A stretch of DNA of 26,024 bases from the IMG/VR virus record IMGVR_UViG_3300037153_000163, positions 1 to 26,024 of that record; one strand, given 5' to 3'. The DNA is from a virus. Positions 3,250 to 22,016 of the stretch are shown piece after piece; positions within the stretch are counted from its first letter, which is position 1, and each line of letters opens with the position of its first letter. Made by a program: the position numbers and the translations under genes. The notes under the pieces were generated by a model, which was not told the origin of the DNA, searched no databases, and was given only the letters and a program-made list of their open reading frames with translations.

Positions 3250-3597
3250 CTAGGACTTATCGGGCGGTGTGACGCGGGCGGCGTCGCGGTCCTGACACTG
3301 TTGGCACGCGGCCATGCCGCCACAAGTACAGCCGTCCTCAATCGCCGTGACACCGGACGGAATGACGCGCCGGTACGGGTGGTCGGGCATCGCCTCACGG
3401 ATCGCACCAGCAAGTGCCCACGCCCGGTTAGCCAACTCGGGGACGCCGATGCTGTCCCCGATGCCCTCGGCGCGATCCGCTAGTTGTCGCCACGGGTGAT
3501 AGTCCGGGTGACGCGGGCAATAGCGGCGATGGGCGCCGATGCCACGGCACCCCCCGCACCCCGCGTCATTCTCGGCGGTGTGGTCCATGCCGGTCAC
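3250..3597 (-). CDS. Cys/His-rich small phage protein, function unknown
   Basis: A 115-residue frame begins at GTG 3597, overlapping the integrase stop as GTGA; ATG 3588 is an alternative. It has an N-terminal cluster CGGCRGIGAHRRYCPRHP followed by HPWRQLADRAEGIGDSIG, and a C-terminal cluster CTCGGMAACQQCQDRD. Both clusters have the CxxC spacing of zinc-binding sites. The middle, ELANRAWALAGAIREAMPDHPYRR, resembles small uncharacterised proteins I know from Streptomyces and its phages. It follows integrase in the same transcript and ends just before the shared hairpin terminator, so it may be co-expressed with integrase. No enzymatic motif is visible. A small excisionase or directionality factor is possible from position only; the sequence does not show one. 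Confidence 0.6.
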   Translation of the reverse strand: MTGMDHTAENDAGCGGCRGIGAHRRYCPRHPDYHPWRQLADRAEGIGDSIGVPELANRAWALAGAIREAMPDHPYRRVIPSGVTAIEDGCTCGGMAACQQCQDRDAARVTPPDKS

Positions 3598-4721
3598 GCT
3601 AGTCCAGCGCGGCGCACAGCCTCGATGGCGCGCGCGTTCTTCAGGTTCCGGCTGTACCTATCGATCATCGTCCGGTCCTTCCAGCCGAGCACACCCATCA
3701 CGTCGCCCTCCTCGATCCCAGCCGAGAGCAGCTCGTGGGCGCGGGTGTGCCGGAAGGCGTGCACGTTGATCGACGCCGGGTCGTACCCGGCCTGCTCGGC
3801 GCGGCGCTTGATCATCCGCAGGATCCCGTTCCCGGTCATCTTCCCGCGTCCTCGGGTGGCGTACCACAGCGGCCCGCTGTCGGCGTTCACCCCTGGCGCG
3901 GTGCCGCGCGACTTGGCGATCAGCTTGTGCTTGGCGCGCACCCGCAGCCAGCGGTGCAGGGCGCGCATCGCCTCATCGGAGAGCGGCACCAGCCGACCGG
4001 CCCGGTGCTCCTCGCCGTCCACGATCCGCAGGGTGGTGGCGCGGCGCCGGGAGTCCTTGAGCGCGCGGACCTGGATCACCCGGCTGGCGAAGTCGACGTC
4101 CTCGACGTAGAGGCTGGCCAGCTCGCCTCGGCGTACCCCGGTCATCAGCAGCCGGAGGATCGCGGTGTCACGGATGTCCTCGTAGTCCTTGCCCGCGCAG
4201 ACGGCCAGCAGGTCCTCGGCGACCCCAGCGCCCAGCGTGGACGGCGGCGGCTCGGAGGGCGCGTAGTAGGACAGCTTCCCGGTCCGGTACGGGTTCGGGG
4301 TCTCGTAGCTGGACTCGAGCCAGTTGAAGAAGGGGCGCAGCCTGCGCAGCTTGGTGTTGGTGCCGCCTTGGGTGTGGCCGCGTCGGTAGTCGGCGAGGAA
4401 GCCGTTGAGGGTCTCGACGTCGACGTCGGCGTAGTCGCCCTCGAACCGGATCCGGGTCAGGTACCGGCCCAGCATGTCGACGGCCTCTAGGTAGGACTCG
4501 GTGGTGCGGGTGGAGTAGCTGTCGCCTGCGCGGGTGGTCGCGGAGGCGAGGTGGACGGCGTACAGCTCGCGGGTGCCTGCCCGGTGCCGGAGGTGGGTGG
4601 CGCCGATCCTGGCGACGGTGCCGCCTGCGGTGGCGCGGGCGTCCTTGAGCGGACGGACGGTCGCGGTTGCGGCGGTGGCGGACCTGGCGGCGGTCTGGGG
4701 GTGGTTGCGTTCGCGCATCAT
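3594..4721 (-). CDS. int: Tyrosine site-specific integrase
   Basis: The 375-residue protein is a lambda-integrase-family recombinase that would join attP to a host tRNA gene. Catalytic residues can be placed: R197 in TGVRRGELASLY, K222 in RALKDSRRR, the HxxR box H321-R324 in VHAFRHTRAHELL, W347 in VLGWKDR, and the nucleophile Y356 in MIDRYSRN. Residues about 60-160 form the core-binding SAM-like domain (TTESYLEAVDMLGRYL, LRRLRPFFNWLE). The N-terminal 55 residues are basic and may bind arm sites. There are two possible starts, ATG 4721 and ATG 4718, with AGGAG about 12 bases upstream. The attP region lies directly upstream, with tRNA-like core and repeated arm motif, so gene and site form a standard integration module. 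An operator-like dyad overlaps the start codons, suggesting control by the phage repressor. Confidence 0.95.
   Translation of the reverse strand: MMRERNHPQTAARSATAATATVRPLKDARATAGGTVARIGATHLRHRAGTRELYAVHLASATTRAGDSYSTRTTESYLEAVDMLGRYLTRIRFEGDYADVDVETLNGFLADYRRGHTQGGTNTKLRRLRPFFNWLESSYETPNPYRTGKLSYYAPSEPPPSTLGAGVAEDLLAVCAGKDYEDIRDTAILRLLMTGVRRGELASLYVEDVDFASRVIQVRALKDSRRRATTLRIVDGEEHRAGRLVPLSDEAMRALHRWLRVRAKHKLIAKSRGTAPGVNADSGPLWYATRGRGKMTGNGILRMIKRRAEQAGYDPASINVHAFRHTRAHELLSAGIEEGDVMGVLGWKDRTMIDRYSRNLKNARAIEAVRRAGLA
4704..4719. promoter_or_regulatory. Operator-like site over integrase start codons
   Basis: GTTGCGTTCGCGCATC matches GTTGCATnnGyGCAAC at 12 of 14 defined positions and covers the integrase ATG codons. 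It is partly coding (RERNH), so it may be fortuitous, but it falls where a repressor site would be expected. Confidence 0.35.
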
Positions 4722-5143: not shown

Positions 5144-5485
5144 ATGGCAGACAAGGACGCGGCGGTGATGTCGCCGGAGACGTTCGCGGCAACGCTGAGT
5201 CAGCGGCAGCTTCACTGTCGCGAACTCGGGCACAACTGGAAGCCGTTGACGGTGAGCTGGGATCGGAAGGCGCGCGCCTACGACCGGCAGCTGCGCTGCT
5301 CGATGTGCCGCACGATCCGGCGTCAGGTGCTGGATTCCTCGGGGCATGTGCTGCGCAACGGGTACGCCTACCCGGATGGCTATCTGGCGACGGGGGTGCA
5401 GAAGGGCATCACCCGCGATGTGTTCCGGCTGGAGGCGATCACCCGTTTCCTGGAACCGCATGAGCAGACGAAGGAGGCGTCCTGA
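5144..5485 (+). CDS. Zinc-ribbon-like phage protein, function unknown
   Basis: A 113-residue protein starts at ATG 5144, after GGGAGGG about 12 bases upstream. It contains CRELGHNW near residue 25, then RQLRCSMCRTIRRQVLD with a CxxC pair near residue 50, followed by GHVLRNGYAYPDGYLA. I recognise this order (a G-H-x-W start, a CxxC, then Y-x-Y-P-D-G-Y) from small actinophage proteins of unknown role. One zinc site made of the CxxC and upstream Cys/His residues is plausible. It is the first gene of the plus-strand cassette next to attP and has operator O2 upstream, so it is likely expressed under repressor control. Its TGA overlaps the ATG of the next gene by one base (TGATG). Confidence 0.7.
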   Translation: MADKDAAVMSPETFAATLSQRQLHCRELGHNWKPLTVSWDRKARAYDRQLRCSMCRTIRRQVLDSSGHVLRNGYAYPDGYLATGVQKGITRDVFRLEAITRFLEPHEQTKEAS

Positions 5486-5925
5486 TGGCGCAGGTGATCG
5501 AGACCTACTGCGACCAGCACCTGGAGAACGGGGAGCAGGTGCGTGGGCAGACGTGGCGGGTGGAGGTGAAGGTGCCGGGCAGCCGCGCGGTGGCCTACGA
5601 GGTGGATCTGTGTGTGGACTGCGCGAAGCCGATCGTGGCGTTGCAGGAGGCGTTGGCCGATCAGGGGCGGCGCCCGTCTGCGAAGCGTGGCCCGGTGCCC
5701 GCTGAGGCGTTCGAGGCGCAGCAGCGTGGGGAGAACCAGTGCCCGGTGTGCGACAAGGTGCTGGCCAACCACAAGTCGCTGCAATCGCATGTGCGGCAGC
5801 AGCACGAGCAGACGTTGGCTCAGGCGCTGGGCGAGGAGACGCCGTACGTGTGCTCGTGCGGTCGGGAGTTCACCACACCGCAGGGGTTGGGGGTTCACGC
5901 GGCCCGGATTCACGGAGCGGCGTGA
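5485..5925 (+). CDS. Tandem C2H2 zinc-finger protein
   Basis: The 146-residue protein starts at ATG 5485 in a TGATG overlap with the previous stop. The N-terminal part (1-60) has CDQH (C9, H12) and CVDC (C43, C46), a possible zinc knuckle around a beta-rich segment (QTWRVEVKV, AYEVDLCVDC). After a basic linker comes a classical C2H2 finger: C86-x2-C89-x12-H102-x4-H107, starting CPVCDKVLANHKSLQSHVRQ. A second finger follows with C123/C125-x12-H138-x4-H143, in which the first Cys pair is C-x-C instead of C-x2-C. Both fingers keep the hydrophobic spacing of the fold. Sequence-specific DNA binding is likely, though C2H2 fingers can also bind protein. The location in the repressor-linked cassette suggests a regulator or host-interaction factor. 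The target is unknown. Confidence 0.75.
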   Translation: MAQVIETYCDQHLENGEQVRGQTWRVEVKVPGSRAVAYEVDLCVDCAKPIVALQEALADQGRRPSAKRGPVPAEAFEAQQRGENQCPVCDKVLANHKSLQSHVRQQHEQTLAQALGEETPYVCSCGREFTTPQGLGVHAARIHGAA

Positions 5926-14776: not shown

Positions 14777-15135
14777 GCGATCACCGGGATCCGATAGGAG
14801 GCTTCGAGCCGCGCGATCTCGGCATCCCAGGCGGGCAGCCGGACCTGCCCGTACTCGGCTGCCTCGCTTCCGACCAGCCCGAGCGGGACGTTGCGCGCGG
14901 CCACTTCGCGTTGGCAGCGGCGCAGGCAGGCGCGGGACAGCGCGGCTGGGTAGTCGTCGTCCCCGAAGGCGTCGCTGAAGCTTGCCCCGAACGCGGAGCC
15001 TGCGGTCACGCGCAGGAGCCGCGCCTGGATCGCCAGCTCGGCGTCGAGGATCTGCTGGAGATCCTCGTCGCTGAGTTGGCTGGCTGGGACCTTGATCCAG
15101 GCGCGGACCTGCTCCAGCGTCGGGGGTCCGGTCAC
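14773..15135 (-). CDS. Head-tail connector (HK97 gp6-like adaptor)
   Basis: GTG 15135 overlaps the capsid stop as GTGA. The 120-residue helical protein starts PPTLEQVRAWIKVPASQLSD, followed by a helix EDLQQILDAELAIQARLLRV, PAALSRACLRRCQREVAARN and a C-terminal EAAEYGQVRLPAWDAEIARL. An N-terminal P-T-x-x-x-V-R-x-W, then D-x-x-L-x-x-x-L-x-A-x, and an R-R-x-A-R-x-x-P segment are the usual plan of adaptor proteins that sit below the portal. It follows the major capsid gene directly, the common position. Confidence 0.75.
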   Translation of the reverse strand: MTGPPTLEQVRAWIKVPASQLSDEDLQQILDAELAIQARLLRVTAGSAFGASFSDAFGDDDYPAALSRACLRRCQREVAARNVPLGLVGSEAAEYGQVRLPAWDAEIARLEASYRIPVIA

Positions 15136-16376
15136 GACGAGGACTTGCTCGTGCTCGTCTTGGATGCGGTCGTGGTGAGTCCGCCGTCGACGGTGACCTC
15201 TGCGATCGCTGCGCCTTCGGTGACCGCGAACGCGGCACGCGCCTCGGCCAGGATCACGAGCTGGTTGCGCAGGAAGAAGTCGGCGTGGGAGTCGGACATG
15301 AACACGTCGGTCACGCCACGGTCGAACCAGGTCACGCCCTGGGAGAAGTCGCCGACGTAGGCGGTGCCTGCCGGGATCGCGCCAGCGGCGACGATTGGGA
15401 GACCCCAGGCGTTGCCGTTGCGGACCGGCCCAGAGAAGGAGGCGCCCATCGCGGCCAGGTCCAGGTCGGCGGCGTCGGCGGGGTTGACCAGGATCGCGTT
15501 CGGCGAGTACCCGTCTTCCTCGACGGTGGCGATGCCGACGCGGATGCCGGAGAGCAGGTCGTCTCCGGTCGCGGTCTGGAAGCTGCCGCCCTGGATCACG
15601 GTCGCAGCTGCGGTCTCCAGCGCATCGCGGACTCCGCCGAGCAGCTTGTTCTGCACGATCGACTGGATCTGCGGCACGTCCTCCAGCGCCTGCCGGGTGA
15701 TCGCCTTGTAGTGCGCATAGGTCGACAGCGGTACCGAGTTCTCGGTCGGCGTGATCGGCGCCTCGGGCTTGAGCTCGCCTTCGGCGACGACCGCTGCCTG
15801 CGGGTCGGTGGTGCCCCAGGTCAGGTAGAGGACGGCGCTGGCGTTGGTCTGGACCCGGCCCAGCGTGTCGAGCAGCGGGGTGCGGGTGACGTAGCCGGAC
15901 GGTCCCGCCCAGGTCATGGTGGGCGGCGGGTCGAAGTCGGAGGTCATGATCGCGGCGCGGAACTCCCGTGATGCGGGACCCGGCAGCGGCACCCGCTCGG
16001 AGGATCCGGCGCCGTGGTAGTTGCGGAACGCGGTCGACTCGACAAACCGCTTGCCGAAGTCGACGCGGCCACGCGCCTCGGCTGGCTCTCGCTCCTTCGT
16101 GCCCTCCTTGGCGGCCTCGTGGGCGCGGTCGGCTTCCTCCTCGGCCTCCTTCTGCGCGCCGATCAGCTCGGCGAACTTCGCGGCGCCCTCATCGAAGTTC
16201 TTGATCCGCTCGACCTCGGCGTCGAGCTCCTTGAGGCGCTCAACGATCTCGTCAAACGTCTTCCGCTCGGACTCGGTGAGATCGCGCTTCTCGTCGGCGG
16301 CGCGGGTCTGCAGGGTCTTCAGGACGGCGGACTGTGAGGCGCGTTCCTCGATCTTGTTCCGCAGGTAGGGGTTCAT
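15132..16376 (-). CDS. Major capsid protein (HK97 fold) with N-terminal delta domain
   Basis: ATG 16376 has GAGGAGA at suitable spacing. Of 414 residues, about 1-100 form a charged coiled coil (KTFDEIVERLKELDAEVERI, QKEAEEEADRAHEAAKEGTK), which is the scaffold-like delta domain removed by the prohead protease. The HK97 fold follows with TRTPLLDTLGRVQTNASAVL, the E-loop and spine region, SVPLSTYAHYKAITRQALED (the common K-I-T-x-Q-x-L/A-E-D motif) and ADFFLRNQLVILAEARAAFA near the end. The C terminus is a Thr/Ser/Lys-rich tail (TTTASKTSTSKSSS). The protease gene is directly upstream, separated by a 173-base leader with three hairpins. Cleavage site not determined. Confidence 0.95.
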   Translation of the reverse strand: MNPYLRNKIEERASQSAVLKTLQTRAADEKRDLTESERKTFDEIVERLKELDAEVERIKNFDEGAAKFAELIGAQKEAEEEADRAHEAAKEGTKEREPAEARGRVDFGKRFVESTAFRNYHGAGSSERVPLPGPASREFRAAIMTSDFDPPPTMTWAGPSGYVTRTPLLDTLGRVQTNASAVLYLTWGTTDPQAAVVAEGELKPEAPITPTENSVPLSTYAHYKAITRQALEDVPQIQSIVQNKLLGGVRDALETAAATVIQGGSFQTATGDDLLSGIRVGIATVEEDGYSPNAILVNPADAADLDLAAMGASFSGPVRNGNAWGLPIVAAGAIPAGTAYVGDFSQGVTWFDRGVTDVFMSDSHADFFLRNQLVILAEARAAFAVTEGAAIAEVTVDGGLTTTASKTSTSKSSS

Positions 16377-16417
16377 CGTGCGTCTCCTCGGGCACGGTCG
16401 CGATTGCTAGGTGATCG

Positions 16418-16504
16418 CGTCCCCTACCGGGACGACTTCGGGTCCCCTACCGGGACCTCGGGTGCTGCTGTTCGGTTGTGCGGGAGATCCCCTACCGGGA
16501 TCTC
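16418..16504 (-). repeat. Three covarying hairpins between protease and capsid genes
   Basis: Hairpins at 16418-16434, 16441-16457 and 16484-16504 share the plus-strand 13-mer TCCCCTACCGGGA. In each, CCC/GGG close an identical loop, CTACC on the plus strand or GGTAG in the mRNA. The outer stem differs but stays paired: CG with CG, GG with CC, GAGA with TCTC. Stems are 6, 6 and 8 bp. This compensatory change points to structure under selection. They are in the leader of the capsid gene, ending about 40 bases before its ATG. Possible roles are transcript stabilisation or processing, translation control, or protein binding. Confidence 0.75.
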
Positions 16505-16549
16505 AGAACCGCTCTGGTCGACAAGGTACGGCTGGGCCAGTCGGTTCGT

Positions 16550-17119
16550 CTACCGTCCCCACACCAGGCGGGAGAGGTCGACCTCCTCGGGCATGTCCTC
16601 GATCCGATAGTCGACGGCGAGCAGCTCCGAGACATCGGGGAGCGCGTGTCGCACGGCGAGGACCTTCGCTTCGTCGTAGGCCGGTTCGTCCACCAGCGAG
16701 ACGTGGAACAGCCGCGCCTTGACGATCTCGCGTGCCCCATCGGCGGCGCGGCGCTCGGTGACGGGCACGAACCCGACCGAGAGTCCGCCGTAGGTCCCCT
16801 CAGTGACGTTCTCCCACGCCCCGCGCCCCTCGGGGGTGTTGTAGAACCGGAAGGTCCCGAACAGCCCGCTGCTGGTGTCGCGCAGCTCGGTGGCGATCCC
16901 GACCGGCCTTCGCGCATCCCCCTCGATGTGGGAGTCGGTGAGCCGGATCCGGGTCTGCCCGGACCGGGTGGTGACGTCGGCGAACGCACCAGGCAGGAAC
17001 CGCTCCCCGTGCGGGTATCCGGCCTTCATGGTGGTGCGGTCGTAGGGGACGCAGAGACCTTCGAGCGTGTGGTCACCTGCGCGACGCAGCTCCAGCGGGA
17101 GGACTGTTGAGTCGGTCAT
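16550..17119 (-). CDS. Prohead protease (HK97 U35-like)
   Basis: ATG 17119 overlaps the portal stop as ATGA; a much longer open frame upstream is a shadow of the portal gene. The 189-residue product has the herpesvirus-assemblin-like prohead protease motifs: the N-terminal EGLCVPYDRTT and GERFLPGAF, the catalytic His in LTDSHIEGDARRPVG (H64), the catalytic Ser in GTYGGLSVGFVP (S114), and LFHVSLVDEPAYDEA supplying the acidic residue. It cleaves the delta domain of the capsid protein and itself during maturation. The C-terminal 40 residues are acidic (PDVSELLAVDYRIEDMPEEV). Confidence 0.9.
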   Translation of the reverse strand: MTDSTVLPLELRRAGDHTLEGLCVPYDRTTMKAGYPHGERFLPGAFADVTTRSGQTRIRLTDSHIEGDARRPVGIATELRDTSSGLFGTFRFYNTPEGRGAWENVTEGTYGGLSVGFVPVTERRAADGAREIVKARLFHVSLVDEPAYDEAKVLAVRHALPDVSELLAVDYRIEDMPEEVDLSRLVWGR

Positions 17120-21330: not shown

Positions 21331-22016
21331 GCGAACAGCACCTCCTGCTGTAGGCGGCGGGCGGCGCGTTCGGCGTACTGCTCCTCCAGCTCGACGCCGA
21401 TGGCTTGGCGTCCGGCGTGCTTGGCGGCGGCGAGGGTGGCGCCGGATCCGGTGAATGGGTCGGCGATGGTGCCGGGTGGTGCCTTGCGGACGAGGGTGCC
21501 CATGAGCGGCAGCGGTTTGGGGGTGGGGTGTCCTTCGTCGCGTGCGTGGTGGGTGACGTGCTGGACGCGGAGGATGCTGGAGCTGCGTTTGTCGCCGTCG
21601 GTGTGCCAGCCGGGTCCGTTGACGTAGATGAGCTCGTAGGACCGTCCCCAGGGGAAGTCGGTGTTGCCCATGCCGACGTTGAGCTTGTCCCAGACGAGTG
21701 GGAACTCGCGGTAGGGGAGGGCGCCGTCGAGTCGGGCGGGGGAGCCGAAGACGGCGTACGGGCGGGTCGTGCCCCAGAGGTTCATCGCTTGGTCGCGCAC
21801 GTCGAGGTTGCTGTCCCAGGTGGGTTTGTCGTGGACGACGGCGGCGCGTGCCTTCTCGTGGCGGCGTTTGCGGGATGGGGTCTGGTTGGAGAGTTGGCTG
21901 TTGAGTCCGTACGGCGGGTCGGTGATGAGCACGTCGGCGTGGAGCCAGTCGAGGATCTGTAGGCAATCCCCGAGGTAGAGGGTGACGTAGTCGTCCTCGT
22001 AGTACGGCTCGGTCAC
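21327..22016 (-). CDS. DNA methyltransferase (N6-adenine/N4-cytosine, beta-class order)
   Basis: The frame may start at GTG 22016 (GTGA overlap with the upstream stop, chosen here) or at ATG 22028; neither has a strong RBS. The product of 229 residues has the catalytic motif IV DPPYGLNS (33-36) near the N terminus and the SAM-binding motif I DPFTGSGATLAAAKHAGRQA with IGVELEEQY near the C terminus. This is the order of beta-class amino-methyltransferases. HPTPKPLPLMGTLV before motif I is also typical. It has no restriction partner in sight, so it is probably an orphan phage enzyme protecting DNA from host restriction or marking it. The recognition sequence cannot be inferred. Confidence 0.9.
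   Translation of the reverse strand: MTEPYYEDDYVTLYLGDCLQILDWLHADVLITDPPYGLNSQLSNQTPSRKRRHEKARAAVVHDKPTWDSNLDVRDQAMNLWGTTRPYAVFGSPARLDGALPYREFPLVWDKLNVGMGNTDFPWGRSYELIYVNGPGWHTDGDKRSSSILRVQHVTHHARDEGHPTPKPLPLMGTLVRKAPPGTIADPFTGSGATLAAAKHAGRQAIGVELEEQYAERAARRLQQEVLFA

Follow-up and report, generated by a model that had tools for sequence, protein, structure and literature searches.

The gap between the head maturation protease and major capsid genes of this phage holds an array of small hairpins sharing one loop which, on comparison with related leaders, is a real and conserved RNA element and apparently an undescribed one. We consider it fairly probable that the capsid mRNA has a structured 5' UTR with the array as its conserved core, and that this leader acts as a two-state translational switch. 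The novelty of the element lies in the family and in the gene targeted; its kind, a leader RNA that controls a ribosome-binding site (RBS), is known. Each virion of a tailed phage needs hundreds of capsid subunits, and it is largely unexplained how these are supplied, without excess, by a gene in the middle of a late operon; if our reading is true, a promoter-like site, loop-marked hairpins and an RBS-hiding fold would together provide a concrete post-transcriptional mechanism.

The window, by which we mean the whole 26,024-nt stretch of viral DNA that was analysed, carries late genes on its minus strand that encode the terminase large subunit, portal, head maturation protease, HK97-type major capsid protein, connectors, major tail protein and tape measure. 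Since a tyrosine integrase is also encoded (3594-4721, minus strand), the phage is probably temperate; a C2H2-like zinc-finger protein, under the Pfam cut-off, lies at 5485-5925 on the plus strand. The protease stop (16550) is separated from the capsid start (16376) by 173 nt, and this gap contains, as the preliminary description had reported, three copies of TCCCCTACCGGGA; they are exact and share one orientation (16420-16432, 16443-16455 and 16488-16500). No further exact copy was found elsewhere in the window, and the sole copy with one mismatch lies inside a methyltransferase gene (21706-21718). On the minus strand, which corresponds to the mRNA, we recovered the three hairpins and the identical GGUAG loops that had been described (Table 1). 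When the gap was shuffled with its dinucleotides preserved, sets of three hairpins with one loop and stems of 6 bp or more never arose (0/5000) and sets of two arose twice (2/5000), and a scan of both strands of the window revealed no second cluster of three same-loop hairpins. The distance from the array to the capsid gene downstream is 42-128 nt; its spacing is irregular, at 22-49 nt. The likening of the GGGGA run to a Shine-Dalgarno sequence did not hold up: no start codon lies at Shine-Dalgarno distance from any GGGGA run, and the Shine-Dalgarno of the capsid gene is GAGGAG at 16384-16389, separate from these runs.

Table 1. Features in and around the protease-capsid gap (window coordinates), with the relatives that carry the GCAC type of leader.
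Feature	Positions	Strand	Details
Major capsid gene (HK97-type), proposed regulated gene	15132-16376	-	PHROG_10 major head protein, E 6.6e-37
CCCCUACC in capsid codons 2-5	16364-16371	-	perfectly complementary (8 nt) to GGUAGGGG of every hairpin
RBS-side partner strand of hairpin 3	16380-16402	-	holds GAGGAG; duplex -19.5 kcal/mol
Hairpin 4, apex stem CGCGAU/AUCGCG of alternative long hairpin	16399-16419	-	
Hairpin 3, candidate switch hairpin	16418-16434	-	CGUCCC GGUAG GGGACG, 6 bp; 25.8 bits
Hairpin 2	16441-16457	-	GGUCCC GGUAG GGGACC, 6 bp; covariance model 28.1 bits
Hairpin 1	16484-16504	-	GAGAUCCC GGUAG GGGAUCUC, 8 bp; covariance model 26.5 bits
-10-like TACCTT, 18-nt spacer	16523-16528	-	transcript start predicted near 16516
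-35-like TAGACG	16547-16552	-	overlaps protease stop codon
Upstream gene, head maturation protease (part searched)	16550-17110	-	PHROG_80, E 7.3e-27
GCAC-type capsid leaders			L120, L157, L218, L230, L232, L233, L244, L266, L272, L103

Since a promoter-like site lies directly upstream of the array, a capsid mRNA with the array as its 5' UTR is probable. Two relatives (L002 and L004) have TTGACG-18-TACCGT at the matching position, and promoter-like TTGAC-N17/18-TANNNT sites with a score of at most 2 were found directly upstream of the arrays in 72% of 68 leaders versus 21% of shuffles, a conservation that may be partly coding at some loci, where the -35 part overlaps protease codons. In three relatives (L003, L057 and L099) hairpin 1 starts ~7 nt past the -10-like site, which is the predicted 5' end. 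This placement would suit hairpins that stabilise the capsid mRNA by blocking 5'-end-dependent decay, with the loops being incidental; as such a role leaves the conservation of the loop, the repetition of the hairpins and their complementarity to the RBS (see below) unexplained, we regard it as quite improbable.

Relatives were gathered by a capsid search of viral contigs, which returned one identical copy (L001) plus many homologues. Those with 61-66% capsid identity and an available leader have three to four hairpins in the equivalent place (L002, L003, L004, L057, L096, L097 and L099). Their loops are GGUAG in L002, L003, L057 and L099, with one GACAG (L003) and one GAUAG (L057) in addition; GACAG and GCUAG in L096; GGUACG in L097; and GGUCG, GUUCG and GUCG in L004. 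When the sister leaders L004:5815-5890 and L002:5955-6035 were compared, hairpin positions were equal and the stems still paired, and all three GGUAG loops were replaced in L004 by loops containing UCG. Many of the phages with capsids 39-50% identical also carry arrays, the loops of which are either related, GNYAG or GUAG (L166, L104, L100, L123, L107, L105, L134, L138 and others), or different, being a GCAC tetraloop within long outer stems (L103, L120, L157 and others). This second array type has the core GCCC(C/A)GCAC(G/U)G, outer stems that covary, and two to four repeats. On a quick tree of the capsids, array type required 16 changes versus 40 with shuffled labels and thus tracks the tree. 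Most loops read G-N-Y-A-G (alignment A2), and in hairpins of the form AGCC-loop-GGCG the third pair down from the loop is replaced by a conserved A.G mismatch or a bulged A. The capsid leaders of another capsid group (L125, L133, L135, L136, L158 and others) have repeated (G/U)CACCCG motifs without clear hairpin arrays.

The carriers of the array are a large group of mostly uncultured soil phages. Their hosts are probably Actinomycetota, since two clade members sit in bacterial genomes of that group: one, L103, is a Xylanimicrobium pachnodae prophage, and the other, L166, comes from a Promicromonosporaceae MAG. A relative of the GCAC type (L174) is carried by X. pachnodae NBRC 107786. The median protease-capsid gap in the clade is 146 nt. 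Six cultured actinophages with capsids 27-30% identical have a gap of 24-66 nt in which the array is absent, and a DNA search of the leader against named phages turned up nothing beyond a weak match of 29 nt in Marshawn (E 0.6). In the cultured Arthrobacter phages MargaretKali and Maja (L168:1423-1488 and L170:1374-1434), a terminator-like GC hairpin with a T run replaces the array in the protease-capsid gap.

The stems differ between copies and remain paired, and this could be quantified with 34 hairpin instances. The search pattern used to gather these prescribes the two inner pairs and most loop positions, such that the outer five pairs constitute the independent evidence; 83% of stem cells were standard pairs versus 63% after shuffling, 44 cells were changed on both sides versus 15.5, and the covariation score was 0.504 versus 0.202 (0/500 shuffles), being best at slide 0 with a sharp drop on register slides. 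Each of the outer five pairs has two-sided changes. In an alignment-free test, the left flank of a hairpin fitted its own right flank better than those of the other copies in the leader (p = 1/3000 for GNYAG, 16/3000 for GUAG and 2/3000 for GCAC). At the second pair, over half of the instances have U.G and the rest C-G, which favours mRNA-sense RNA since the other strand would have an A.C mismatch, although the search pattern admits only C or U at this pair and the point is supportive, not decisive. Covariance-model matches above 18 bits in 0.52 Mb all lie in the capsid leader except one, a result whose informative part is the absence elsewhere, as members of the model match by construction. 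The exception among these capsid-clade loci is a single match on the minus strand of L101 (12503-12523).

A leader position on the mRNA strand and compensatory changes are thus both found, as in structured cis-regulatory 5' UTRs. The internal covariation on which the preliminary description had based its case for structure extends between copies and across dozens of relatives, the covariance model that it had proposed to apply to related phages gave a positive result nearly confined to the capsid leader, and the placement in the capsid-gene leader recurs in the relatives. Its alternative of RNA or cruciform can be narrowed: structure stands, and the evidence favours RNA, given the U.G changes and the complementarity of the last hairpin to the RBS of its own mRNA. 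The same evidence bears on whether the repeats are instead double-stranded DNA operators, or stoperator-like repeats, for a repressor or late activator. They are short and lie near a promoter-like site, and phage stoperators exist (PMC3203893), but these consist of one motif conserved over the full site, whereas the outer arms of the array vary between copies yet stay complementary. As the C-G to U.G changes, the irregular 22-49 nt spacing and the RBS complementarity also speak against DNA operators, we consider them very improbable.

Since RNAfold of the window leader displaced hairpin 3, we carried out a complementarity test across relatives, in which the last hairpin was scored against its own RBS region (-30 to -1) and against the RBS regions of other loci. 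The last hairpin scored -19.46 kcal/mol with its own RBS versus -15.60 kcal/mol when permuted (own versus swapped 0/5000); the relatives are not independent, and this and the following permutation values overstate significance. It was also the best RBS partner among the copies in 13/18 loci, where 6 were expected. Control regions were flat (capsid codons +60 to +105 and +300 to +345, and protease sequence). With one locus per lineage, the test gave 4/5000 for the last hairpin and 646/5000 for non-last hairpins. Changes in the loop are matched near the Shine-Dalgarno in L100 (GAUAGGGG/CCCCUAUC), L096 (GCUAGG/CCUAGC), L097 (CCUCGGU/ACCGAGG), L134 (CAAG/CUUG) and also L123. Exceptions to the rule are L104, L107 and L003. 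In leaders of the GCAC type all copies pair with the RBS, not only the last; in GNYAG leaders, the non-last copies keep the loop without RBS pairing.

The complementarity was also seen without any hairpin definition, as leader positions -100 to -36 scored against the RBS gave z = -9.9 over 68 leaders, and leaders without recognised arrays gave z = -6.5 as a set. For 12 loci fetched later, the leader-RBS value was 0/5000, with one control, the protease end, at 97/5000. Over 78 loci, leader-RBS complementarity reached z = -11.8 for the capsid gene versus -0.6 to 0.5 for other genes of those contigs. Structure sampling preferred the alternative fold in 18/19 loci, mostly by 2-12 kcal/mol, in a setting where GC-rich RNAs fold strongly in silico. 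The predicted local and alternative folds exclude each other. This sampled alternative is usually a long hairpin with hairpin 4 at its apex; the sequence of hairpin 4 is not conserved, and many relatives have a similar stem in the equivalent position.

At the level of the family, the RBS is therefore complementary to an upstream leader strand, as in the T4 genes e, soc, 49 and I-TevI, where the RBS is hidden in a leader helix (PMC3014915). In these genes the Shine-Dalgarno or start codon is paired with an upstream mRNA strand, as predicted for the array, but no tandem same-loop hairpins have been described for them. What opens them is a promoter within the structure, and the one promoter-like site found in the window leader is upstream of the array. 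A sequestration of this kind, dependent on promoter choice or processing, would keep read-through late transcripts silent, and translation would come from transcripts whose 5' end arises, by initiation or cleavage, downstream of the last hairpin. RBS sequestration specific to the capsid gene would agree with it, and one of the T4 precedents, soc, is a capsid gene (PMC3014915); with the promoter-like site where it is, however, the transcript would retain the sequestering strand, and the conserved loops of the non-last hairpins are left unexplained. We therefore judge this explanation unlikely.

The conservation of the loop while the stem changes could alternatively reflect a protein operator without a switch, in which an RNA-binding protein, perhaps the capsid protein or a cleaved N-terminal domain, represses directly and the RBS helix is a by-product of composition. 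T4 gp43, the DNA polymerase, binds such a conserved-loop hairpin ~40 nt upstream of its own start, together with RBS sequence (PMC3014915). The gp43 operator has one hairpin and serves a replication gene, whereas there are three to four hairpins before the capsid gene here and the ligand is putative. Control regions and other genes lack such complementarity, so composition is not the explanation, and in our estimation a direct operator is improbable.

We accordingly return to the two-state switch, the steps of which are set out here as a model. Transcription would start just upstream of hairpin 1, as the promoter-like sequence suggests, to give a leader of ~140 nt, and hairpins 1-3 would fold during transcription. 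Their shared GNYAG-type loop would be a mark read by a ligand acting in trans, for which an RNA-binding protein encoded by the phage is the likeliest candidate. We infer such a ligand because the loop is conserved while the stems change, and the main argument for it is the retention of the loop in those GNYAG copies that do not pair with the RBS. On unfolding, the last hairpin would pair with the downstream RBS region and a longer hairpin would close over hairpin 4, a predicted fold that, going by the statistics across relatives, would hide the Shine-Dalgarno or first codons. The RBS would then be free when the hairpins are folded and hidden when the last hairpin is unfolded. With ligand on the array, the last hairpin would stay in its local form and the RBS would stay open, and capsid synthesis would follow ligand supply. 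That the direction is activation, not repression, is a guess, made because the ~40 nt from the hairpin to the start downstream are more than simple occlusion would bridge.

For the window itself, the switch would follow by homology from what is a statistical property of the family, because its own duplex is unexceptional and its alternative fold pairs codons 2-5. The hairpin 3-RBS duplex alone was equalled by 14.5% of shuffles, and own versus swapped pairing within the window's clade was not significant (507/5000). In the predicted MFE fold, CCCCUACC pairs with hairpin 3; in the sampled alternative, GGUAGGGG pairs mostly with CCCCUACC and the Shine-Dalgarno is ~90% unpaired. This complementarity may be incidental to the (T/P)YL codons conserved at the N-terminus. 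Pairing between loop and capsid codons was rejected as a general rule, as coding positions +1 to +30 showed no last-hairpin preference and TYL/PYL codons can yield the motif. Pairing between the loop and 16S rRNA was dropped on reasoning, as the loop variants GAUAG, GACAG and GUUAG would break it.

A tentative and rather doubtful extension of the switch is a family-wide, capsid-specific sensor, in which free capsid precursor, its N-terminal scaffold-like domain or another late protein would bind the loops and set RBS opening via the last hairpin, matching shell synthesis to assembly, with each lineage having its own loop code. The array recurs over many capsid lineages of actinophage-like type, each with loops of its own. 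These lineage-specific loops suggest that RNA and protein partners co-evolve, and such pairs could also be used as orthogonal translation tools.

Small hairpins with a conserved loop on phage mRNA are familiar from the coat-protein operators of RNA phages (MS2 type), which have the loop consensus R-N-Y-A. The GNYA part of the array loop resembles this consensus, a resemblance of the loop only, and the array differs in belonging to a dsDNA tailed phage with an unrelated capsid fold and in having tandem copies. In ribosomal-protein leaders and translational riboswitches, a ligand-binding structure is exclusive with an RBS-sequestering helix, as is proposed here. In contrast to these, the array has no Rfam family match, precedes a viral structural gene, and has a repeated simple hairpin as its putative ligand site. 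A search of Rfam 15 with the window and eight relatives returned nothing at gathering score and two chance-level matches on the opposite strand, and in the open-access literature searched we found no account of a capsid gene preceded by tandem hairpins with a marked loop, although this does not prove that none exists; both agree with the initial remark that no described element of this shape was known. The SAS/ESAS of cluster K mycobacteriophages are likewise short repeated actinophage elements near translation starts with a suggested role in translation; they consist of the 13-bp GGGATAGGAGCCC, contain AGGAG and lie 3-7 bp before the starts of non-structural genes (PMC3203893), whereas the repeat here is TCCCGGTAGGGGA, 42-128 nt before the capsid gene and without a Shine-Dalgarno.

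Lastly, a tandem-pattern scan of viral contigs gave 85 matches. Six of the best matches outside the capsid clade were inspected and look unrelated, being intragenic repeats, tandem repeats or AT-rich palindromes. In an unrelated AT-rich viral contig, three tandem ACCCGG(U/C)AGGGGU hairpins lie upstream of a 156-aa ORF (L042:7311-7377) and are probably convergent. Four 35-bp tandem repeats with CCCCCCGGTAGGGGGG palindromes were found at a contig end (L067:8146-8271).
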